Shown here piece by piece: positions 8,782 through 64,000 of a stretch of DNA of 64,000 nucleotides; position 1 is the first letter of the stretch, and each line of letters opens with the position of its first letter. The notes beneath the pieces were generated by a model, which worked only from the letters and a program-made list of their open reading frames with translations, made no database searches and had not been told where the DNA came from. The position numbers were made by a program, and so were the translations under genes. Source of the DNA: an uncultured Methanosarcinales archaeon (GTDB lineage: Archaea > Halobacteriota > Methanosarcinia > Methanotrichales > Methanotrichaceae); the NCBI GenBank assembly GCA_903871465.1, contig CAIQHB010000016.1:1-64000 (forward strand). The letters are read 5' to 3'.

Positions 8782-9585
8782 TCATGCCTCTTTTAATTCG
8801 GTTTCCACACCGTTGCATGTGCCGCGCAAGATGCAGACAATGCCGGCTGCCAGGAGCACGGCTATAATGCCCGTCAGGAATATGCCGTCAAATACACCCG
8901 CTCCGCCGATGGACAGGACCAGTGGCTTGGCGCGGATCAGATCCAGCGGCGACAGCGCAGGCAGGACTCCCGGTGTGAGTACGCTGAGAATGTCCGCCCC
9001 AATCAGGGTTCCAATGGTGCCGCTGATGTAGGCCAGGGGCGGAGAGCCGCGGTAGCCACCCGCCAGTGCCAGGCCCATGACCGCGGCCAGAAGAGGCGAC
9101 AGCCAGAAGGGAAGAACTATGCCCTCTCCGGGAACCGCTTCGGCTACATAGTAAGTAATGGCCGCCACCACCACCACACCAAGAAATGACCTGCCAAGGG
9201 AGGCCTGGCGGATCAGAAGAAGGTGGGCTGAGATGACCAGTGGTATGATGCATCCTCCCAGGTTCACGGCCAGATAGAGGGAGTGGAATGTCGTGGGAAA
9301 GCTCTGTGGATAAAGGCTCATCACTGTCAAGTACCAGGCAGGGTAAGCAGTGATAGGTGCGCTCATGAGGGGCAGATCCACCAGGCTTCCCAGAATGGAG
9401 CCGAAAACGGCCAGGGATGCATTCCAGTGGCTGAAGCCCACCATCTCAAAGGCGGTCTCCGAGAGACGCAAAAAGAGGTAGATGAAGATTGTGGGCACCG
9501 CTAATATGAGCAGCAGAATGATGATGGTAAAGGGTAGATAGAGGATTTCGAACAAGCCTTGACTCCAGAATGAACATGTTCGCAA
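8782..9585 (-). CDS. DUF1614-like integral membrane protein
   Basis: Multiple TM segments; FGSILGSLVDLPL and GGTGVFDGIFLTGI-like motifs (GGAGVFDGIFLTGI). Confidence 0.7.
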   Translation of the reverse strand: MRTCSFWSQGLFEILYLPFTIIILLLILAVPTIFIYLFLRLSETAFEMVGFSHWNASLAVFGSILGSLVDLPLMSAPITAYPAWYLTVMSLYPQSFPTTFHSLYLAVNLGGCIIPLVISAHLLLIRQASLGRSFLGVVVVAAITYYVAEAVPGEGIVLPFWLSPLLAAVMGLALAGGYRGSPPLAYISGTIGTLIGADILSVLTPGVLPALSPLDLIRAKPLVLSIGGAGVFDGIFLTGIIAVLLAAGIVCILRGTCNGVETELKEA

Positions 9586-9667
9586 AGGTTAATAGAGCTT
9601 TCTGGCGTGCACAATGTTTATGGCCTGAGCGGAATTTTGCGAAAGAGGGAAATCCAAGGTGATGTAA

Positions 9668-10159
9668 ATGACTATTCTTACCGGCAGCGAGGCCCGGGGC
9701 CTGGTCGAATCCATGATCGACCCTGAAACGCAGACCCAGATGTGCGGCGTAGAGTTGACTCTGCAGAAGATCGAGCGCTTCATAACAGCCGGAACGGTAG
9801 CTTTCGACAATAAAGAGCGAAAGCTGCCCGAGACCGAGCTCGTGAATTTCGATGAAATGGGCTGGATCGACCTGACCGCTGGCGCCTACCTGGTTACTTT
9901 CAACGAGATTGTCAATATCCCCACGGATGTGACGGCTATGGCGCGGGCGCGCTCCACGCTCCTCCGCTGCGGTGCCACCCTGGAGACGGCCCTCTGGGAT
10001 CCGGGCTACCGGGGACGCAGCCAGAGCCTTCTCGTGGTCTACAATCCGCTGGGACTGAGGCTCAAGAAGAATGCCCGGCTGATGCAGCTAGTCTTTCTGC
10101 GGCTGGAGAAAGAGGCGGAAAAGCTGTACTCCGGGAAGTATCAGGGAGAAAATATCTGA
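9668..10159 (+). CDS. dCTP deaminase/dUTPase family protein
   Basis: ARARSTLLRCGATLETALWDPGYRGRSQSLLVVYNP. Confidence 0.85.
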   Translation: MTILTGSEARGLVESMIDPETQTQMCGVELTLQKIERFITAGTVAFDNKERKLPETELVNFDEMGWIDLTAGAYLVTFNEIVNIPTDVTAMARARSTLLRCGATLETALWDPGYRGRSQSLLVVYNPLGLRLKKNARLMQLVFLRLEKEAEKLYSGKYQGENI

Positions 10160-33153: not shown

Positions 33154-33184
33154 TTCGAAGAAAGCTAAATAGTGCCACCTCGTC

Positions 33185-34576
33185 TTATCGGATCATCTTT
33201 CTGGTTAAAACAACTAAAAATAGTGATAGGAACAGATACCCCATGAGGCGTTCTATCACGGCAACGTATTTCCATTCTCCAATGGGTCGCACCTCAGAGG
33301 GAGTGCTGCCGGTTAATGCTGCAGCGCTAAAATACAGATAATCAACCCACGATGCACCTCCAGCAGACACCTCGATGGGATGTGTATTTTGGGTGACTAA
33401 GGGGGCGGTATTTAAGGACAAAGGAGAGATTTCGGAAGACCCAACACTCACCACCCCATTAAATAATCCATAAAGAGATGCGAAAATAACGACACATCCC
33501 AGTACGCAAAAGACCGGGCGCCATACTTTAACTCCATACCCGCAGGTGACCCAGGCGATAATGTCAAGTAATTTTGACCACCCATACCATGATTTCTTGC
33601 TCTGGGCTATCCTTCTATACTGGTAATAACAAGCATCCGCATCTTCAAAATAGTCAAGATTTTTAAAATTCTTTGCTAGTGTAAGATATGCGGCACCCTG
33701 ATAATTCAAATGGTTGTTGACAGTCTCCCAACGGATATATGCACGCTCATATTTTGCTCGATTGAGATCCAATTTTTGATCAAATCGCGTCTCAAAAAAT
33801 GTGACGTCCTTTCTGAAGGTGGCTCGCTCGAATTTTGCGTCCCCATTGAAGACTGTTCCATCGAACCTGGCGTCCCTTCTGAAAGTCGTTCTGTCGAATT
33901 TTGCGTCCCCGCTGAAAGTCGCTCTATCGAACCTTGCGTCCTCATTGAAAGTCGTTCTGTCGAACCCGGCGTACCTGCTGAAAGTAGCATAGCGGAACTC
34001 GGTACCCTTGCCGAAAGTCGCTCTGTCAAAAGAGGCGTCCTTGCCGAAAGTCGCTCTGTCAAACCAGGCGATCTTGCCGAAAGTCACTCTGCCAAAGCCG
34101 GCATTCTCGCTGAAAGTCGTCCCGTAGAACTCGGCCTTCCCCATGAAAGTCGCTCCGACGAACCAGGCATCTTTGCCGAATGTCGCTCTATTGAACCCGG
34201 CATCTCCCCGGAAAGTCGCTCCGATGAACCAGGCATTCTCGCTGAAGGTCGTTCCGTGGAACTCAGCCTTCCCGATGATTGTTGCTCCGACAAACAGGGC
34301 ATCCCTGGCGAAGGTCGAATTGTTGAAGTTTATCGCTCCCTGGATTGTGGAATTAGCGATGTCGATGGAAGAGTCCACCGTCTTTACGTCCTCGCTTAAA
34401 CCGCATTGTTTCTGAAATTCGGTTCGCTCCACACGTCGAGTCGGAAGTTCCAGTTTGCTGAGGTCAAGATCGCCTTCGATGACCGCATTTCTCAATCGAA
34501 CCTTTTTTCCATCCAGGATTCTCTGGAGAACCCAATCCGCAGAAATTGTGTTTTTAGGGCGATTCTCATCGGTCAA
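33185..34576 (-). CDS. pentapeptide-repeat protein with C-terminal two-TM ion-channel-like domain
   Basis: About 20 F-x-x-A/T-T-F-x-x-D/A repeats; C-terminal YFSAAALTGSTPSEVRPIGEWKYVAVIERLMGYLFLSLFLVVLTRKMIR. Confidence 0.85.
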   Translation of the reverse strand: MTDENRPKNTISADWVLQRILDGKKVRLRNAVIEGDLDLSKLELPTRRVERTEFQKQCGLSEDVKTVDSSIDIANSTIQGAINFNNSTFARDALFVGATIIGKAEFHGTTFSENAWFIGATFRGDAGFNRATFGKDAWFVGATFMGKAEFYGTTFSENAGFGRVTFGKIAWFDRATFGKDASFDRATFGKGTEFRYATFSRYAGFDRTTFNEDARFDRATFSGDAKFDRTTFRRDARFDGTVFNGDAKFERATFRKDVTFFETRFDQKLDLNRAKYERAYIRWETVNNHLNYQGAAYLTLAKNFKNLDYFEDADACYYQYRRIAQSKKSWYGWSKLLDIIAWVTCGYGVKVWRPVFCVLGCVVIFASLYGLFNGVVSVGSSEISPLSLNTAPLVTQNTHPIEVSAGGASWVDYLYFSAAALTGSTPSEVRPIGEWKYVAVIERLMGYLFLSLFLVVLTRKMIR

Positions 34577-34582
34577 TTTATC

Positions 34583-34687
34583 TCACTTCCAGAACCGCCA
34601 CCAGCTCTTGGCCCTGGCCGCTTCCTGCGATAGTGGTAGGTTTGGCAGGATAACGCTTTGGGTAAGCGCCACGTGCTCTCTGATCAT
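34583..34687 (-). CDS. 34-aa Trp-tailed small protein (not in ORF track)
   Basis: MIREHVALTQSVILPNLPLSQEAARAKSWWRFWK*; ATGA overlap with upstream ORF. Confidence 0.5.
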   Translation of the reverse strand: MIREHVALTQSVILPNLPLSQEAARAKSWWRFWK

Positions 34688-34896
34688 TTCCAGATCTGCC
34701 ACCAACGTTTAGTCCTCAGGAAATTGGGGTTGGCCGCATACAATAACAGGAGTATGCCAACTACTAGCAAGATCACACTAAGGACGTTGATGCTATGCGT
34801 ATTTATCATTGTGACTAGCTGTCCTAACTGTAACCATATAAGCCAACCGCCGACGATTGCTAATATAGCCCTAACGATCAAGTTCATAAAGATCAT
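34684..34896 (-). CDS. 70-aa two-TM protein ending RTKRWWQIWK
   Basis: ORF track; AAGGAAGGAGTAAAATG start context (Shine-Dalgarno-like). Confidence 0.6.
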   Translation of the reverse strand: MIFMNLIVRAILAIVGGWLIWLQLGQLVTMINTHSINVLSVILLVVGILLLLYAANPNFLRTKRWWQIWK

Positions 34897-34967
34897 TTTA
34901 CTCCTTCCTTAACTCGCTTTAATATTGGATGATCTTAACGAAAAGGTTTTGGATACGTAGGCGGTTA

Positions 34968-35042
34968 TTTCCAGAACTGCCACCAGCTCTTGGCCCTGGC
35001 CCCTTCCTGCGATAGTGGTAGGTATGGCCGGATAATGCTTTG
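34968..35042 (-). repeat. second copy of the Trp-tail sequence (QSIIRPYLPLSQEGARAKSWWQFWK*), frameshifted
   Basis: Strongly matches 34586-34660 (ccagaac[c/t]gccaccagctcttggccctggcc). Confidence 0.7.
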
Positions 35043-35362: not shown

Positions 35363-35501
35363 CTTTTTCCTTGCCCGAAGCCACCCACAAATAGCGAAAA
35401 TATCTCGACCTATAATACATGACCCGAGAACATTTATTGAAGGGATAAAATGACCCAATTAATATCACAAATTTGCCAGTAAAATTATGCTCCGGTTGGG
35501 G
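35363..35501. repeat. att-like direct repeat copy B (tRNA-Glu 3' end plus integrase remnant)
   Basis: ccagtaaaattatgctccggttggg identical to 42707-42731; flanking about 115 bp imperfectly conserved. Confidence 0.8.
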
Positions 35502-35842
35502 AATTTAGCATAGATTTACGAGTAACCCAAGCTCCCGGATTTAGTAGGCGCATCAAACAGATTATCTCGATGCAATTGCCTCCATTTCAAAAAATGGCCT
35601 CAAATATGTACGTTCATGACCAGTTTGCAAGGCGATATGTGCCCACAAAAATATTATAGCACTACGAAACCCTAAAAACATAAGTTTCACGTTAAAAAAT
35701 GCTGAAAATAGAGCTTATACATGAAGCTTTGAAGCAGATATGATAAATTCTGATGAAAAATTATTAAGGCACTCATCCCGTGCGCTCACTCTTCGTAGAG
35801 CTTAGGTAGTAAGCAGTAATCTATAGTTTTAATCTCACGAAT

Positions 35843-36020
35843 CTATTGTGCGCTATTGTGAGCAATAGGCTTTATTCTCCCCATAATCGAGATAATATGA
35901 GAAAAGCAAATAGCCAAAGACCAATCCAGATTCCTTACGCAGAAGGTCATTGTTTGTCGCCATAGGTTTCGCCAAGAAGAGGTTAAACACCGGTGCGCTA
36001 TTATACTATCTATTAAAGCA
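35843..36020 (-). pseudogene. partial decayed duplicate of the 36039-36701 gene
   Basis: FALIDSIIAHRCLTSSW vs FVLMDSIITHRYLTPSS; shared ...attatactatc[t/c]attaaa. Confidence 0.5.
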
Positions 36021-36038
36021 AAGACAGTATATTTGCTT

Positions 36039-36701
36039 CTAGCTTGAATTCTCGGTTTCCCTTTTAATTTCATCATCCAACTCGTTGAATCTGCTATCAA
36101 TTTTTTGGAATAGGATTTCTTTTTTTTCTTCAAAGCAGTCAAGCAATTCTTCCCCTTTTTCACTTGATTCAAAACTGCAGTGTGGTGTATTCCCCTTTTC
36201 CTTAAAATACGCCTCTTTTGCACTAATATAAGCATCCAATGCAGCTTTAAATTCAGAAGAAGGGGTTAAATAGCGATGCGTTATTATACTATCCATTAAA
36301 ACAAACATTGGATTATTTTCACTCACATCTCTCCGATAATAGTGATCTGGCATATCAAAGGCCGTGTGATCTTCTGCAAAACTATGTACTCCAATATAGC
36401 AAGGTGCAATTAATTTCTCCATCTCGTCCACCAAATAAGAAATTTTTGCTTGTTTCCTTGTAATGTCAATTTGCTCACTCAACTTTCCTAGGGATATAAA
36501 TGTGGCGATCGCCAGCGCGAGTGTTCCAATGGCTGTAAGGGAATCAGGGTAGCCGATTCCTATTGTGATGAGGGTTGAATAAAAATTTTCTAATATAATA
36601 GGTATTATTATAATTAACACGATTAAAAATGTTATAAGATGCTCTAGTGAACTATGCACCAGGGGAGTGTACAAATTCTGTATTAGGCCGAAAACATCCA
36701 T
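36039..36701 (-). CDS. membrane-anchored cargo protein of unknown function
   Basis: ORF track; two N-terminal TM segments then soluble helical domain. Confidence 0.6.
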   Translation of the reverse strand: MDVFGLIQNLYTPLVHSSLEHLITFLIVLIIIIPIILENFYSTLITIGIGYPDSLTAIGTLALAIATFISLGKLSEQIDITRKQAKISYLVDEMEKLIAPCYIGVHSFAEDHTAFDMPDHYYRRDVSENNPMFVLMDSIITHRYLTPSSEFKAALDAYISAKEAYFKEKGNTPHCSFESSEKGEELLDCFEEKKEILFQKIDSRFNELDDEIKRETENSS

Positions 36702-36785
36702 CTTACCTATTCTCCAGAATATGCCTATTAGCTCTTAGCCATTAACATATTCTAAACTGGCTGCAATGAAATGATTAGAAGTTTA

Positions 36786-36983
36786 TCAAGTTTGCGCGTC
36801 CCTGCTCAGGCCAAGGATAGGATCTAAGTCTGCATATCGCATCCCAATGGGTCGCTTCAGATCGCATCGCTCCATCTTTCCGCCGTTGTTGGTGAGTATC
36901 CGAAGGATACGATCACGAGGAAACCGTGAAACGCTTGTCGCTCCAAGACGTCCCCTTTTATAAATTGCCACATTTAGATTCAA
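36786..36983 (-). pseudogene. small winged-helix-like regulator, C-terminus apparently frameshifted
   Basis: RFPRDRILRILTNNGGKMERCDLKRPIGMRYADLDPIL; continuation GTRKLDKLLII in another frame. Confidence 0.45.
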
Positions 36984-37858
36984 TGTGCAATATCATAATT
37001 CTCAAAATTTGCATTGAATATCAACGAGACAATAGCTACTAATTCGCCGTCATCAATTCGCTCTAATTCCATCAACCTGTAAAGATCGCGACCAACACCT
37101 GCAACTTGAACGTTTTCAGAATGCCAGAGATCATATAACGAACTTACCGGAATCCCGGGCATACTGTCGAAAGATAAATCTCTCCCCCGAAAGAGCAATC
37201 CTAATTCAACCGCCTCCGAGAGTAGCGATTCTCTCTTTGCAATTGAATATTCTTGAGGATTATTTATACATCTTCGTTTCATTTCAATTATTTTGTCTTG
37301 GTCTGCATATAAACTCAATATGCACATTTGTCTGAACGAAAATCTTTGAGCAAATTTTATTAACAAATTAGCTTGCGCCTTATCGATGATCGAATCGAAA
37401 AAGATATTTGCTAAAAGGTTTCCTACAAAAGGCAATTTGTTTTCTTCGTGCTCTCTCTGTACTGCCAATAAAATTCCTTCGAACACCTCATTAGCAGGAG
37501 GCCGTTCTATGATAGGTATTTCAGCACATGCAGGATGTCCTGTTGATAGCGATTCGAAAAAGCCATCGTCTCTAAGCATCTCTCCTGCAGCTAATTTTTT
37601 CAGAATTTTATCTACAGCGTAAATTGTGACTCCACCGATTCTTATTTTCTCTCGTTCACTAAGTAATCGCTCTGCAATATCGGTTCCGACCTCAATTATC
37701 CCTCTCTGGAGCATATAGGCACTTCCACCCCCCATGGCCGCTCCTATAGGTCCACCGAGCAGAAATCCAATTCCTGCGCCCACAGCTGATCCAGTAATTT
37801 TTGAACCCGCATCAACTAGACTTTTTATACCGTTAACTTCTCCTTCATTTAGACACAT
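36980..37858 (-). CDS. cargo protein with N-terminal glycine-zipper hydrophobic segment
   Basis: ORF track; ITGSAVGAGIGFLLGGPIGAAMGGGSAYMLQRG. Confidence 0.6.
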   Translation of the reverse strand: MCLNEGEVNGIKSLVDAGSKITGSAVGAGIGFLLGGPIGAAMGGGSAYMLQRGIIEVGTDIAERLLSEREKIRIGGVTIYAVDKILKKLAAGEMLRDDGFFESLSTGHPACAEIPIIERPPANEVFEGILLAVQREHEENKLPFVGNLLANIFFDSIIDKAQANLLIKFAQRFSFRQMCILSLYADQDKIIEMKRRCINNPQEYSIAKRESLLSEAVELGLLFRGRDLSFDSMPGIPVSSLYDLWHSENVQVAGVGRDLYRLMELERIDDGELVAIVSLIFNANFENYDIAH

Positions 37859-37943
37859 TTTATCCCTCTCCCTGAATCGTCAACAGCTATTGGCCTTGGC
37901 ATACTGTTTCCCCCTTGCCGCCAGGTAATATCGTCACCTCATC

Positions 37944-38560
37944 TTATCGAATCATCTTTTTGGTCAAAACAACCACGAATAATGCCGTTCGGCAGGTTCT
38001 TTCAATAGTATCATGCGCGTTACAGCTTGTTTTGCCGCATTTCGCGCAAGAAAATTTTCTGCCTTTTTGAAGTCAACATGGATATCGAGTTGCTTTCCTT
38101 GAGCACCAAAGTCTATTGTTGTGATGTACCAAGGATATTCAATACTATTTTAATAGGGCATCCATGGGATCGGCACTGCTAATTTTCTAGCGCGAGTTGA
38201 TATAGAGACTTAACTAGCCTACCCACAGAGAATAGCGAAGAGCCAAAAATAACGGGTTCTCTAAATAAGTTGTTGTCGAAATTTATCTCTGCGTCAAACT
38301 TCGTGTCAGTGATTTTTATCGAAGAGGATACAACCTTGGATTCTATGGGAAATTTCGAATTGTTATCAGGTATTCCCTTCTAACAACGTGTTCTGCAGGT
38401 AAGTCTAATTTGCTAAAATCCAGTTCGCCCGTTATTCTGAGATTTTCTTATTCAAAAGGCTCACTTTTTTGGATCTTGTCCAATATCTTGCTGGCTGGAT
38501 CTTCCGTCTGGAGAAGGATCTCGCAGGGATTGTTGTCCTCGATATAGCCACCTACCTCAA
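37944..38560 (-). pseudogene. decayed second copy of pentapeptide-channel gene, interrupted by ISL3 fragment
   Basis: N-term ILDKIQKSEPFE*ENLRITGELDFSKLDLPAEHVV, repeat part IKITDTKFDAEINFDNNLFREPVIFGSSLF, C-term ALFVVVLTKKMIR*, with stops. Confidence 0.7.
37987..38165 (-). mobile_element. ISL3-family transposase N-terminal fragment (frameshifted)
   Basis: IEYPWYITTIDFGAQGKQLDIHVDFKK then shifted frame KFSCAKCGKTSCNAHDTIERTCRT. Confidence 0.65.
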
Positions 38561-38633
38561 GCAGGAGAAAAATATCTTGTCAAATTGAGCATGACCGAGA
38601 ACCTGATCAAAGAATCAAACTGCGTGCTGCCAC

Positions 38634-38913
38634 CCCCACCCCTAAAGGATGGGGTATGCTTCGGGCCGCACGCCGCCGTTTCCTAGAATCCAGAAATCAT
38701 TGAGTCCTCGTTGCTCAGATCCCCTTTCTCCAGGATTGAGATTTGCTTTGGCATTCCTTTGACTTTGAGTTATCGCATCCTGGTCATAGGTAGTGGCACC
38801 ACATGTGGATAATGTGCAAAAACCTCAGTTTTGAAGTAAGCAATGTTTCATTGATTTGATAGAGCCCGAAAACTGTGCGATGGTTCACTTCATCCCCAAC
38901 CTAAAGGTAGGGG
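38634..38913 (-). mobile_element. IS200/IS605(IS1341)-like mini-element remnant bounded by two hairpins
   Basis: CCCCATCC-TTTAG-GGGTGGGG (38634-38654) and CCCCTACC-TTTA-GGTTGGGG (38894-38913), typical ACCTAAAGGT-type IS605 ends; no intact TnpB. Confidence 0.5.
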
Positions 38914-38945
38914 TATCTGTGGCCCTCCGCGCACCCGATGTAATA

Positions 38946-39632
38946 TCAGAAAGGTGTCACTCGGGGTGTTTTGAAGGGTGTGAACTTCACGAAATATAAG
39001 GTAAGAATGACTTCAACAGTGACACACATTATTTTTATATAAATTTCCTGCCCCCCAAAAAGACAATCACAGAAAAACAGCATGCCACATGTCAGAATGA
39101 GCATGATGGCCAGCGATACCTCAGCAAGGCAGAACATAGCAAGATGCGCGATCAAGTGCACAAGAAAGGGCCGGACTATCGACCAGACCTCTTGGCGAAT
39201 GGGAGTGCATATCACGATCGTGTGTGGGTACTTTGCAGTTCTGCACCGATTCCCTGGCTTGGTTCTTTTGATAAGGATATGTAGGCCATTGCCACGTTGG
39301 GACTGCTCTGTATAGGAATTGAATCGTTTGACTATTTCCAACGCCCACTGCTCAATTACTCCGTCTTTAATGCAGTCATCCAAGTCTATGAAGACTATGC
39401 CGTTCTCCTCACAGAGAATGAAGCAAATCCCGTCATAGCCTTCACGGTCTTGGTATGCAGCCAAAGCAGCATTGAATGTGGACCATGTTAACCGATCGGT
39501 CGAGCTTGCCCTCTGGCCTGTTGTGGGGGAATAGGGAACCGTTGTTATTTCTCCGTCCACATCCTCAAGCTTATAGACGCACCACTGAGGAAGATCCTTC
39601 GGCCCTAAAGGGATGGCATCAAAGTCTAGCAT
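38946..39632 (-). pseudogene. truncated PrimPol-type (NrS-1-like bifunctional primase/polymerase) replication protein
   Basis: PQWCVYKLEDVDGEITTVPYSPTTGQRASSTDRLTWSTFNAALAAY...GICFILCEENGIVFIDLDDCI...RGNGLHILIK; homology lost after residue ~125. Confidence 0.7.
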
Positions 39633-39856
39633 CCCTTCATATCCTCCCGAATCAGCCTGAACCTATAATCATTATCCGTTCTCAGAACGCCAACCTGCTG
39701 GCATATTGCCTCTTCAAGCCTAGTGGCCAGCCCAAGGGGCAGGATCACGGATATCTTGCCAATTCGTGCAAGGCAGTGGTCATCATACTTCTTGACTTCA
39801 ATGGCTTGGCCCAAGAGCTCATCCCAGGGTCGCATTTGGTAGGGCTGGCCATCCAT
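39626..39856 (-). CDS. small conserved protein of integrated elements, overlaps PrimPol start
   Basis: YQMRPWDELLGQAIEVKKYDDHCLARIGKISVILPLGLATRLEEAICQQVGVLRTDNDYRFRLI. Confidence 0.65.
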   Translation of the reverse strand: MDGQPYQMRPWDELLGQAIEVKKYDDHCLARIGKISVILPLGLATRLEEAICQQVGVLRTDNDYRFRLIREDMKGC

Positions 39857-40017
39857 TCAACGGCCTCCAATGTAATCGAAAAGCGTGCTAGTAATACTAG
39901 CAACGTATTTATGCTCAAAAGTACCTGTCAATTATGAACACCTCAATGGATGTGTGTTCGCGGCCTGGCGGTGCGGTCTGGACAACTCAGCCGCCTGGCC
40001 TATCGATTCTATATTTT

Positions 40018-40176
40018 TCAACATTCGATTCCCCTTGCATCGATTCCAGCGTCCAAAAGCTCTCGGGCCGCTTCACCAAGGCTCTTTTTTTCTTGTTCAG
40101 CCATACGTTCGACCACACGGCGTTGATTCTGAGACAGTTTCAACGCAAGTGATGCCGGAAATTTTGTATATATCAT
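40018..40176 (-). CDS. 52-aa ribbon-helix-helix-like protein (not in ORF track)
   Basis: MIYTKFPASLALKLSQNQRRVVERMAEQEKKSLGEAARELLDAGIDARGIEC*. Confidence 0.55.
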   Translation of the reverse strand: MIYTKFPASLALKLSQNQRRVVERMAEQEKKSLGEAARELLDAGIDARGIEC

Positions 40177-40317
40177 TGCGACATGTCTCCTTATTCGTAA
40201 CTAATCTATTGGTTTAAAATGTGGCCTTATAGCTATTTCTATATACCGATTATGACTTTTTTTGGTTATAACTATTTTCAGATATATTTAAATAGGAAAG
40301 CAGACCATTCCGTTGCA

Positions 40318-41301
40318 ATGGTAAAAAAACTTACCCAAGACCTAGCCAGGAAATTAAGAGATCGCCGAAATTTGAGACCAGCAGATAGAGCCAACCTCGA
40401 TTACAAGATGGCTAAAAAGCTTAAGTCGGGGCTTGACGAATTGGCGGGATTGCTTTACATAATGGAAGCCCTGCCACCTGATAAGATCAGACCTTCACGC
40501 GATCGAAAAGATGGTTTGAAAGACGGGCATGTCCGCTTACTATTGAAAGTAACGGAGTCCGCTTTAAGAATATTGGATTACAAAAAAGTTAGAGTGTCTG
40601 CATATGATCTATATGTTCTGGAGGAAATAAATAAAAAAATTACTGGGGTAGACTGGAAAACCGGCAAGCCCATTAAACATGGAGAATTCCATAGACGGAA
40701 GGCCAAAAAAGAGGAACTCGATAGAGCTACTTTGCTATGGAAACACGTGGATTATCTAAATGAAAATTTTGTCCCTGAAATCAACACCGAGAATCCAAGT
40801 ATTTGTGGGAGCATTAGCATAGAGGATCGTATAGACGAGCAAATATGGCAAAAAGAGGAGGAGAAGATAAAACAACTTCTAGAATCCGGTATTAGAGATA
40901 TAGGGCAAATTGCTAAAGAGGTTAGTCGTGATTCTTGGAACGTGCTACAGATTGCCTATCAAATTCAAGAAACTGAAAGAGAAATCAAGAGACGAATAGA
41001 GAGACGTGAGCAAGACATCACAAATCTGGAACAAGATACAGTTGCCATTGAACGAATTAAGGAGCTTTGGGGGAAAGGCTGGAGAAATATAACCGCAATT
41101 GCGGTAGAAATTGACCATCCAAGAAATGCCATAATGGCCATAATAAATAAAATGGAAGCCAACGGAGAAATCCAGAAAGAAGATGTTGTATTAGTACCTG
41201 GAGGCGACTTTCCTAAGCTGAATGAAATCGATCTTCTCAAGCATCAAGAGGCAGCGCGCTCTGTGGAGCATCTAATGACCAGACGAGAAGAGCCCAAATA
41301 G
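40318..41301 (+). CDS. unknown protein with two tandem C-terminal HTH-like segments (start revised to 40318)
   Basis: EEEKIKQLLESGIRDIGQIAKEVSRDSWNVLQIAYQIQ and AIERIKELWGKGWRNITAIAVEIDHPRNAIMAIINKMEANGEI. Confidence 0.65.
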   Translation: MVKKLTQDLARKLRDRRNLRPADRANLDYKMAKKLKSGLDELAGLLYIMEALPPDKIRPSRDRKDGLKDGHVRLLLKVTESALRILDYKKVRVSAYDLYVLEEINKKITGVDWKTGKPIKHGEFHRRKAKKEELDRATLLWKHVDYLNENFVPEINTENPSICGSISIEDRIDEQIWQKEEEKIKQLLESGIRDIGQIAKEVSRDSWNVLQIAYQIQETEREIKRRIERREQDITNLEQDTVAIERIKELWGKGWRNITAIAVEIDHPRNAIMAIINKMEANGEIQKEDVVLVPGGDFPKLNEIDLLKHQEAARSVEHLMTRREEPK

Positions 41302-41439
41302 CCATTCATGATGCTCTTTTTCCTGCTATCGCCTCGATGCTCCTTGATGCACATTTTCGCACACATTTCTGATAAGCGAGTAAAGAAACAATTGCGGCAA
41401 TAGCGGGGCAGAAATGATTTCCAGGCAATCTGAATTGGG

Positions 41440-41530
41440 ATCTTGGAAGCTTTTCTAAATCCCCAACTGCGATATATGCGCCAGATAGCTTCCCTCTGCT
41501 CATTCGGATATGTTATCATAATTGTTTAAT
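41440..41530 (-). pseudogene. second decayed integrase C-terminal fragment
   Basis: SRGKLSGAYIAVGDLEK resembles LRESLSDAYTAIGDLIP of the 42155 integrase; shared DNA ...aaatccccaa[c/t]tgcg[a/g]tatatgc. Confidence 0.5.
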
Positions 41531-41559
41531 GTCTTCGCCTTATCCTATAATTTCTATGT

Positions 41560-42111
41560 CTAGCTATCAGGATATGTAGGTTTTATGCCCCAGATCCGCC
41601 TCCAGAATAATTTTAAGGTGAATAAGAAACAAGCAAAATCGATCGCCAGTAAGATTTTTAAAGATACGGGCAGACAGAAAATAGATTGCAAATTCGGCGA
41701 TGTGGGATCAAAAATTCCTATAAAAATGGCTAAGAATTCCGTGAATAAAAATACACCACTATGAGATCGGGCTACATAGCTGAATCCCTTTTTATCTTTT
41801 TTGTAGGCTTCCCAACCAAGACACAGATCGGGAATGCGGGTTTCCAACTTTTCTCGGAGGTATCTCAGCGTTTGTATCTGCCGATAATCATGATAGACCC
41901 AATCCATAGCTAACAAGGTGCCAATAGGAGGAAAACCGAGTGCTATTGAAGGAGAAACAGATTTGCTTAAAGCGACCCCCAAGAACGCTGCCGCAAAAGT
42001 CAAAGTTAGATCTATTATTTTATGTCGCGTATCCATTCGTTGCAGGAACTCTTGCCTCAGGCTTGCATACTCCATTTGAATGCCTGATAATTTTAGCTGG
42101 TCATGATCCAA
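41560..42111 (-). CDS. cargo membrane protein of unknown function
   Basis: ORF track; about four TM segments. Confidence 0.6.
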   Translation of the reverse strand: MDHDQLKLSGIQMEYASLRQEFLQRMDTRHKIIDLTLTFAAAFLGVALSKSVSPSIALGFPPIGTLLAMDWVYHDYRQIQTLRYLREKLETRIPDLCLGWEAYKKDKKGFSYVARSHSGVFLFTEFLAIFIGIFDPTSPNLQSIFCLPVSLKILLAIDFACFLFTLKLFWRRIWGIKPTYPDS

Positions 42112-42154
42112 GGTCAGACTTAAGCATCTCCCATTATTTTGGCAGCTCTCCGTA

Positions 42155-42660
42155 TTAATTAAACTTATGGATCAGTTTAACCAATGTTCTATTGAGTCTA
42201 AATACATTCAATAAATACATAAAATGAACCCAAAAATTACGAGGATAATTAGTGGGTTTGCAGGGAATCAAATCCCCAATTGCGGTATATGCATCAGATA
42301 AGCTCTCCCTCAGCTCCTTCTTATCTATATGATCATAGATATCAATGGCTTCCCTTCGCACATCACCCCTAAGCACCAGGATGAACTCGCGTGTCATGCC
42401 TGCGCGCCTGAGGTGAGTCGTGAACCAATGCCTGCAACAGTGTGGGCTGAAGTGATCTTCCATTTGATCTGAGCCAGGATTATGCAATCCCACGTGCTCC
42501 GCTGCCACAGTCACAACCTGATATACTCCATTTCGATTAACTCTTGTACCCCAATCATCGATAAAAAGGGCAGGGGAATCGCATCCCCCGCGTCCTTTCC
42601 TTGCCCGAAGTCGCCTATAAATAGCGAAAATATCTCGGACATATGAGGCATGACCTGAGA
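42155..42660 (-). pseudogene. tyrosine recombinase/integrase, C-terminal half only
   Basis: YVRDIFAIYRRLRARKGRGGCDSPALFIDDWGTRVNRNGVYQVV...FSPHCCRHWFTTHLRRAGMTREFILVLRGDVRREAIDIYDHID; abuts tRNA-Glu. Confidence 0.8.
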
Positions 42661-42731
42661 CAATTTATCAAGTAGATAAAATGAGCCAATTAATATCTAA
42701 AATCTACCAGTAAAATTATGCTCCGGTTGGG
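42594..42731. repeat. att-like direct repeat copy A, overlapping tRNA-Glu 3' end
   Basis: See 35363-35501; 25-bp identical core. Confidence 0.8.
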
Positions 42732-42793
42732 ATTTGAACCCAAGTCGAAGGAGTGAGAGTCCTACATGATTGGCCGAGCTACACTACCGGAGC
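42719..42793 (-). tRNA. tRNA-Glu (CTC)
   Basis: GCTCCGG/CCGGAGC acceptor stem, GGTTCAAATCC T-loop, anticodon loop CTCTCAC. Confidence 0.9.
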
Positions 42794-61939: not shown

Positions 61940-64000
61940 TCAGTCTCTGAATGAACCCAGCAGCTCCTCAGCTTCTTCTTGGGTGATGCCCAGGATCTGT
62001 GAAACCGCAGCAGGCACCTGGCGGTCTGTGGTGGCCTGCCATAAAAGATCCAGGCTGCTAAGAGCGATTTTGCATCTATTTTCGTCTCCGAACTCCACGA
62101 AAATCTGCAGGGATTTCAACAGTTTTGCTCTGGCAACATCCCACAATCCTTGCTCTTGAGCCAATTGACCAAGTTGGCCATAGGTGCCAGCCTGACTGTA
62201 TCGATCCTCGAACTCGATGAAGATCTCGAGAGCCTTCTGGTAGTACTCCTCGGCCTGCTTCCATTTCCTCTGCCCCTGGCCCACCATGCCCAGGTTGTGG
62301 TAGGTGCCCGCCTGGCTATAGCGATCCTTGAACTCGATGTAGATCTCGAGAGCCTTCTGGTAGTACTCCTCGGCTTGCTGCCACTTCTCCTGCTCCAGGG
62401 CCACATTGCCCAGCTGACCATAGGTGTCGGCCTGGCGATAGCGATCCTTGAACTCGATGAGAATCTCTAGACTCTTCTGGTAATGCTCTTCGGCCTGCTT
62501 CCATTTCCTCTGCTTCCGGGCCATCCTGCCCAGTTGGAAGTAGGTGTGGCCCTGTTCGTAGCGATCCTTGAACTCGATGTAGATCTCGAGAGCCTTCTGG
62601 TAGTACTCCTCGGCTTGCTGCCACTTCTCCTGCACCAGGGCCAATATGCCCAGCTGACCATAGGTGCCCGCCTGGCTATAGCGATCCTTGAACTCGATGT
62701 AAATCTCGAGAGCCTTCTGGTAGTACTCCTCGGCCTGCTTCCATTTCCTCTGCTCCTCGGACACCATGCCTAGCCGGTGGTAGATGCAAGCTCTTCCAAT
62801 GGCTTTTAATTTGGTGTCCAGAGTCGTTAGACCCTCGTCTATCCTCAGGGCCCTTTGACAAGTCATCTCTGCCTCAGCATATTGTTTGAGCAATAGCTGG
62901 CGACGTGCTATGTCATCGATGACACACACCATCTCCGAGCCTATCGGCCCTTTCAAGACCTCAGCAGAGTAACCTTCCATCTCGGCCAGCACCATCTGGC
63001 CCATCTCCAGCCCCCGTCCTTGCTCTTGAGTCGAGTCCAAGTAATTAGAAAGAGCATAACATGGCCCGTAAATAGACCCTTTAGCCTTCAGATCCAATTC
63101 TAAGGCTGTGTAAAGGTTCTCATACTCCTGACCGGTCAGCGCCTGACCGCTCTGTTTCTGTTTGGCATCCTTAGATCCCATCAGATTGATCAACATGTTT
63201 CCAACGCCGTCATAGTGCGCTCGATAAGCCGTTTCCACAGCCTGCTTCATCTCCGGCTCCTGGTTGAGACGCGTGCGTAAGAAGTACGGTAGCACTGGCT
63301 GCAGCCTCAGGTAGCCAGGCATGAGGTCGGCCGTGACCAGCCCCCAATCCTGGGCCTGTTGTAATAGTTTTGTCATACGTTGAAAAGGCAAATCCTTCAG
63401 AGCCGGTTGCTGTCTCAAGTGTTCGATGTACTTCTCGACGAGTGGCTGGCATATCACGCCAGTGAACGGCGCCAGGGCCATTAGCAGCTTCTGGTCTTCG
63501 GGCTTGAGATTGCCATGTGAATATTCGATACAGAGCATGATGCTCTCGGTCTTGTCCTTTATCTTGGAGTCATCCTCTATCGTGCCCCCCTCTTTCAAGG
63601 CTTCCAGAACTTGTCCCGGCGTCTGATCAGCCAGATTGGCCAGCACCACTTGTATAGGCAGAGGAAAGCCGTCAAGAAGCTTCATGAGCTTCTGGAACTC
63701 CTGGCTCTGGCGGTAAGTGTCTCGTTTCTTGACATCGGCGACATGCCTCTCCAGCACCCTCTCGGCCAGGGTGGTTGCAGCCTGGCCATCCAGCCCGGGC
63801 AGGAGATAGACATCATTCGGACGCAGTGGTGCACCCTCACCTTCCGCCAGCCATTCTTCGGGTCCACGCGAGCCCATCAGCACCATAGTCTCGCCTCCTA
63901 GCAGCTCCGCCAGGAATGTGCGCAGCTCCTGCTGCTCCTCAGGTTTCAAAGTGTTCTTTATGGCGAGAGCGCTGCCGGTTATGGACTCCATGTTATCCAG
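61940..64000 (-). CDS. STAND (NB-ARC-like) NTPase with TPR array, 5' end beyond window
   Basis: Open frame through the edge, LDNMES Walker-B-like; MVLMGSRGPEEWL; LPGLDGQAATTLAERVL; FPLPIQVVLANL; then repeated 40-aa TPRs. Confidence 0.75.
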   Translation of the reverse strand: MDNMESITGSALAIKNTLKPEEQQELRTFLAELLGGETMVLMGSRGPEEWLAEGEGAPLRPNDVYLLPGLDGQAATTLAERVLERHVADVKKRDTYRQSQEFQKLMKLLDGFPLPIQVVLANLADQTPGQVLEALKEGGTIEDDSKIKDKTESIMLCIEYSHGNLKPEDQKLLMALAPFTGVICQPLVEKYIEHLRQQPALKDLPFQRMTKLLQQAQDWGLVTADLMPGYLRLQPVLPYFLRTRLNQEPEMKQAVETAYRAHYDGVGNMLINLMGSKDAKQKQSGQALTGQEYENLYTALELDLKAKGSIYGPCYALSNYLDSTQEQGRGLEMGQMVLAEMEGYSAEVLKGPIGSEMVCVIDDIARRQLLLKQYAEAEMTCQRALRIDEGLTTLDTKLKAIGRACIYHRLGMVSEEQRKWKQAEEYYQKALEIYIEFKDRYSQAGTYGQLGILALVQEKWQQAEEYYQKALEIYIEFKDRYEQGHTYFQLGRMARKQRKWKQAEEHYQKSLEILIEFKDRYRQADTYGQLGNVALEQEKWQQAEEYYQKALEIYIEFKDRYSQAGTYHNLGMVGQGQRKWKQAEEYYQKALEIFIEFEDRYSQAGTYGQLGQLAQEQGLWDVARAKLLKSLQIFVEFGDENRCKIALSSLDLLWQATTDRQVPAAVSQILGITQEEAEELLGSFRD
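62170..62775 (-). repeat. 120-bp tandem repeats encoding near-identical TPR units
   Basis: gatctcgagagccttctggtagtactcctcggc recurs every 120 bp (about 62223, 62343, 62583, 62703, variant at 62463). Confidence 0.85.

Follow-up and report, generated by a model that had tools for sequence, protein, structure and literature searches.

A tandem attachment-site scar at tRNA-Glu(CTC) in a Methanotrichaceae archaeon most likely left by successive integration of two related elements

Introduction

Does the DNA beside a tRNA-Glu(CTC) gene in a Methanotrichaceae archaeon, bounded by two copies of the tRNA 3' end, record one integration event or more than one? Arrays produced by repeated use of a single site by tyrosine-recombinase elements are known in archaea (PMC6563490). 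We analyzed a 64-kb stretch (64,000 nucleotides, hereafter the window) from one contig of an uncultured Methanosarcinales archaeon, in which a preliminary description had proposed a tRNA-Glu integration island with a duplicated attachment site, a duplicated integrase flank and a second related element to the left. We conclude that at least two related mobile elements most likely inserted successively at this spot and left their remains there.

Results

An exact core within a longer, diverged repeat

The 25-mer CCAGTAAAATTATGCTCCGGTTGGG occurs in two exact copies, at 42707-42731 and 35476-35500; the preliminary description had both copies right but placed the distal one a base too far along, at 35477-35501. 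As also claimed there, 13 nt of the tRNA-side copy form the 3' end of the tRNA-Glu gene (42719-42793, minus strand), which is left intact, so that tRNA 3' end sequence lies at both boundaries of the island (Table 1). No exact repeat of this length is expected by chance (0 in 100 dinucleotide shuffles). Aligning the two flanks, as the preliminary description had recommended, showed that they are indeed related: the core is embedded in a direct repeat (35366-35500 and 42596-42731) that is 84% identical over 136 columns (E 2e-34) and has two copies, with no others, in the 3.13-Mb genome. The core itself is identical at 25 of 25 positions, versus ~82% for the arms; with the divergence of the repeat as a whole, an identical run this long at this end would arise with p = 0.007. 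We found no third copy of the core in the window, and among the GTDB r220 contigs a 20-mer from it has a single exact match, which belongs to an unrelated MAG. Intact elements at this tRNA gene in two related genomes, G001 and G012, have 15-bp cores, and the boundary of both cores described here falls within one base of theirs.

Table 1. Features of the island in window coordinates, from the tRNA gene outward; assignment to elements A and B follows the history proposed below.
Feature	Position	Strand	Evidence
tRNA-Glu(CTC), intact, integration target	42719..42793	-	ARAGORN; locus shared with congeners
tRNA-side attachment core, 25 bp, 13 bp within tRNA	42707..42731	-	exact repeat; boundary compared with G001/G012 cores
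Left arm and leader of inner element B	42652..42706	-	register with tRNA-Leu left arms 47/85, 43/85
ORF1 start codon and first ~18 codons, element B, 1-nt insertion, in-frame stop	42596..42651	-	
Integrase pseudogene 1, C-terminal part, frameshift near end; open frame 42155-42655	42270..42628	-	Pfam PF00589 E 5e-7
Integrase remnant 2, last ~29 codons, typical ...SYLAHIxQLGI stop	41457..41541	-	tblastn E 0.02, ~20 integrases match
Truncated primase/helicase N-terminus, mobile-element replication gene	38946..39632	-	phrog_13901 E 8e-37
Right arm of inner element B, TTACTCGTAA 24 nt before core as in G001 and G012	35501..35525	-	arm comparison
Distal attachment core, second exact copy	35476..35500	-	exact repeat; two copies genome-wide
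Left arm and leader of outer element A	35421..35475	-	82% to tRNA-side arm; register 43/85, 38/85
ORF1 start codon and first ~18 codons, element A, frame intact (MYYRSRYFRYLWVASGKEK)	35366..35420	-	

tRNA-Glu(CTC) is an integration site in related genomes

Synteny with other genomes of the genus is preserved on the side of tRNA-Glu(CTC) that carries an endonuclease-III-like gene, and the DNA just past the tRNA is different in nearly all species. The final 15 bp of the tRNA-Glu region are repeated 20,196 bp downstream in G001 and 13,788 bp downstream in G012. Each interval encodes a terminase large subunit, a large primase-type protein and, ~560 bp inward from the far core, an integrase, a gene content that identifies both as probable integrated viruses or virus-like elements. 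These intact elements span 20.2 kb (L053-L055, G001:C65:35996-56206) and 13.8 kb (L060, G012:C20:60-13850); their terminase large subunit belongs to phrog_7579 and is apparently split over two ORFs in G012, their primase-type proteins have 1026 and 1084 aa, and their ORF1-integrase module lies at the far end. A search of virus contigs for the right arm plus core of the G001 and G012 elements returned none.

The same site is nearly empty in G010, where tRNA-Glu and a conserved gene pair, whose homologs occupy window 8782-10159, stand 52 bp apart; in G001 this pair lies 28 kb away, beyond the element. Together with the G001 and G012 intervals, this difference marks tRNA-Glu(CTC) as a used integration site, in agreement with the preliminary description, and by sequence comparison it appears to serve tyrosine-recombinase elements genus-wide. 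In the window the gene pair is 32 kb away and inverted, pointing to local rearrangement. Since gene order to the left of the tRNA has been shuffled in the relatives, we found among them no intact empty site that shares this left flank; judged by synteny, ortholog-bearing DNA runs to ~25.5 kb, perhaps 28.1 kb.

Both repeat copies are left ends of elements of the tRNA-Leu type

The nearest relatives of the integrase beside the tRNA-side core (70-74% identity) lie next to tRNA-Leu(GAG) in G011, G021 and G009. In these elements the order is tRNA, attachment arm, leader, a ~170-aa ORF1 and integrase, with a shorter integrase frame in G009. The ~110 bp beyond each core in the window correspond to the first part of this arrangement, comprising an attachment arm, a 67-nt leader and the ORF1 start codon with ~18 codons. 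Aligned in register, the tRNA-side arm matches the left ends of two tRNA-Leu elements at 47/85 (L025) and 43/85 (L024) positions, against 31 and 30 for the best slid alignments; the distal arm matches them at 43/85 and 38/85, against 31 and 27. The signal persists when the first 26 nt of the arms are omitted (p 0.0003 to 0.007), and it is weaker for a third element, L026, which has a 2-nt deletion. Counted from the end of the acceptor stem, the ORF1 ATG stands at exactly 67 nt in both arms, as it does in L024 and L025 (two of the three relatives). The distal arm preserves the ORF1 frame (MYYRSRYFRYLWVASGKEK vs MPDKSRYVYLYLPSAEDK, p ~0.01 against ORF1 proteins), and the tRNA-side copy has acquired a 1-nt insertion and an in-frame stop. 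The in-register alignment and the ATG at 67 nt identify both repeat copies as left ends of tRNA-Leu-type elements.

This assignment replaces the earlier view of a duplicated integrase flank. The peptides RDIFAIYRRLRARK and RDIFAICGWLRARK, taken before as shared integrase sequence, are read in the wrong frame from DNA that is the start of ORF1, upstream of integrase; what is duplicated is arm, leader and ORF1 start, and genuine integrase sequence is confined to the tRNA side, where its start lies at 42628-42596 or just left of it. When we scored the peptides as integrase, the best scores were no better than those of shuffles for both arms. The peptide of the distal arm reached p = 0.01 by mean score, but an ORF1 start in register accounts for its DNA.

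Across 49 other genomes of the family the arm DNA is absent, except for a 21-bp match in G001 (E 0.0098). In that genome the sequence past the distal core matches the opening ~21 nt of the tRNA-side arm at 19 of 21 positions, and a native tRNA trailer could account for this part of the arm similarity.

The inner boundary of the distal core also resembles an element end. In each of the three right arms compared (window, G001 and G012), TTACT precedes the core by 24 nt, and the spacing from the right-arm to the left-arm TACT-type motif is 43 bp in 3/3 reconstructed attP sites from the same sources. The motif was spotted and compared by eye, and TTACT occurs in the island at a density of 0.0014 per position, so we treat it as supporting rather than independent proof.

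The 7.2 kb between the cores are decayed

A phage-family integrase fragment (PF00589, 42155-42655) lies beside the tRNA-side core, and it falls short of a full-length, potentially functional gene. It lacks ~215-225 N-terminal codons and is frameshifted at its end, and two of its nearest relatives are full-length (334-337 aa). An intact integrase also occurs on contig C53. The adjoining ORF1 breaks off near codon 18 and joins integrase near codon 220-230; we found no N-terminal integrase half across 28-44 kb. The DNA of a second integrase remnant matches 42270-42337 at 79% (E 4e-6). The truncated primase/helicase gene is 67% identical to copies in G012 and G021, and a 360-aa ORF (40219-41301) has no relative in the 49 other family genomes. 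In Pfam, PHROGs and NCBIfam the main ORFs of the 7.2 kb matched no gene for virion proteins or packaging, a search for defence systems found none, and a search of phage records for relatives of the integrase gave no match. The content bears out the earlier description of this interval as accessory-type, and by its integrase it would be a dead remnant rather than a live element.

Several other repeats occur in the window. Parts of 38604-38946 (38613-38750 and 38868-38946) have dozens of partial matches across nearly all genomes of the genus, marking a dispersed repeat that perhaps represents the ends of a transposon relic. The family at 37989-38251 has three copies in G004 (81%), occurs also in G008 and G024, and has an 89% copy on contig C5 of its own genome. 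A tandem array with a ~120-bp period (62151-62787) lies inside a 683-aa ORF.

A footprint beyond the distal core

Because both repeat copies represent left ends of tRNA-Leu-type elements, the sequence beyond the distal core supports a second related element there, as the preliminary description had anticipated; what survives of it is a ~110-bp footprint with its ATG at 67 nt, directly beyond the core and in register. We recognized nothing more of it left of 35366, and neither a body nor a distal attachment site of its own was found. The two arms lose their mutual similarity at the same point, near ORF1 codon 18, which could reflect coincidence or shared history.

The flank left of 35366 carries dispersed repeats. 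A 350-bp stretch within 34585-35006 is 92% identical to another locus of the genome (L125, G000:C69:26441-26861), and both are framed by copies of TTTCCAGAACTGCCACCA, which has seven genome copies at <=1 mismatch and whose minus strand encodes C-termini such as KSWWQFWK and KRWWQIWK followed by a stop. Next to it, 33185-34576 encodes a 463-aa pentapeptide-repeat protein with a weakly ion-channel-like membrane C-terminus, the DNA repeating with a 33-bp period. A 58-bp repeat (81%) links this flank (33168-33225) to the island (37927-37984).

Serial integration and its alternatives

We favor, with good though not complete confidence, a history in which two related elements integrated serially into tRNA-Glu(CTC) and then decayed. 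Element A would have integrated at the tRNA 3' end, bringing its left end (attachment arm, leader, ORF1 and integrase) next to the tRNA. The later, related element B would then have entered the core regenerated at the tRNA, displacing the left end of A by 7.2 kb, so that, reading from the tRNA, a core is followed by B from its left to its right end and then by the second core and the left end of A. This reading takes each core to mark a single integration. Decay would then have taken from B the greater part of ORF1 and the N-terminal two thirds of its integrase, and from A everything except ~110 bp.

We think it unlikely, though worth serious consideration, that only one element was ever present, and that its left end was duplicated in place or acquired a partial second copy, whether by unequal exchange, by gene conversion or because its own circle integrated again. 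In that case A would never have been a separate relative. Such an origin would fit the end of both arms at the same ORF1 codon and the lack of other remains of A. It fits poorly with arms that are 18% divergent while the core is identical, with a right boundary that falls where other elements have their site-specific core boundary, and with a right attP arm motif beside the distal core. Quite improbable, in our judgment, is a single insertion in which attB and attP shared the 136-bp identity and the distal copy is native DNA downstream of tRNA-Glu. The tRNA-side arm does resemble the sequence after the attachment site in G001, and weakly that in G010; however, the arms hold a mobile-element leader and ORF1 start at fixed spacing, the distal arm matches the G001 sequence poorly, and the short G001 match is the arm's one occurrence in the other family genomes.

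Two further explanations we consider hardly credible. Integration of the SSV type would split one integrase gene into halves at the two ends, and an integrase fragment does adjoin the tRNA; yet that piece is C-terminal, its N-terminal counterpart is missing from the interval searched, and integrases beside tRNA genes in the relatives are unsplit. The region contains other dispersed repeats, which might suggest that the 25-mer is one of them or a chance match, but the shuffles, the two genome copies and the near-absence of the core from GTDB contigs all speak against this, including against the common dispersed repeat that the preliminary description had named as its own refutation.

With serial integration as the preferred reading, a change of target might also be envisaged, in which the attachment module (attachment arm, leader, ORF1 and integrase) moved from the tRNA-Leu(GAG) lineage to tRNA-Glu(CTC). 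We regard this as possible but doubtful; if true, the scars record a change of tRNA target at constant arm geometry.

Discussion

The tandem scar described here is a known kind of genome scar, the product of ordinary island accretion. For this genus, in which relatives harbor virus-like elements that are small and intact, it points to tRNA-Glu(CTC) as a site of repeated entry, and it illustrates that a tRNA-side attachment end can be recognized after integrase loss from the spacing of its arm motifs and from an ORF1 start that stands at a constant 67 nt.

Like the tRNA-integrated arrays of other archaea (PMC6563490), the locus combines a tRNA 3' end target, a short direct-repeat core, accessory cargo and re-use of the site, but here both elements have decayed, the outer one to ~110 bp. 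With the tRNA-Leu(GAG) elements (L024, L025 and L026) it shares the attachment arm, 67-nt leader, ORF1 and tRNA-side integrase, as well as the closest integrase sequences, although those elements target another tRNA, and L024 and L025 retain intact ORF1 and integrase genes. The G001 and G012 elements use the same tRNA and the same core, with the right-arm motif at equal spacing; in contrast, they carry their ORF1-integrase module at the far end (the attR side) and possess terminase genes, and their integrases are only 58-59% identical to that of the window. Elements of the SSV and pNOB8 type likewise target tRNA genes by means of a tyrosine recombinase, whereas at this locus no gene is partitioned across the two ends.
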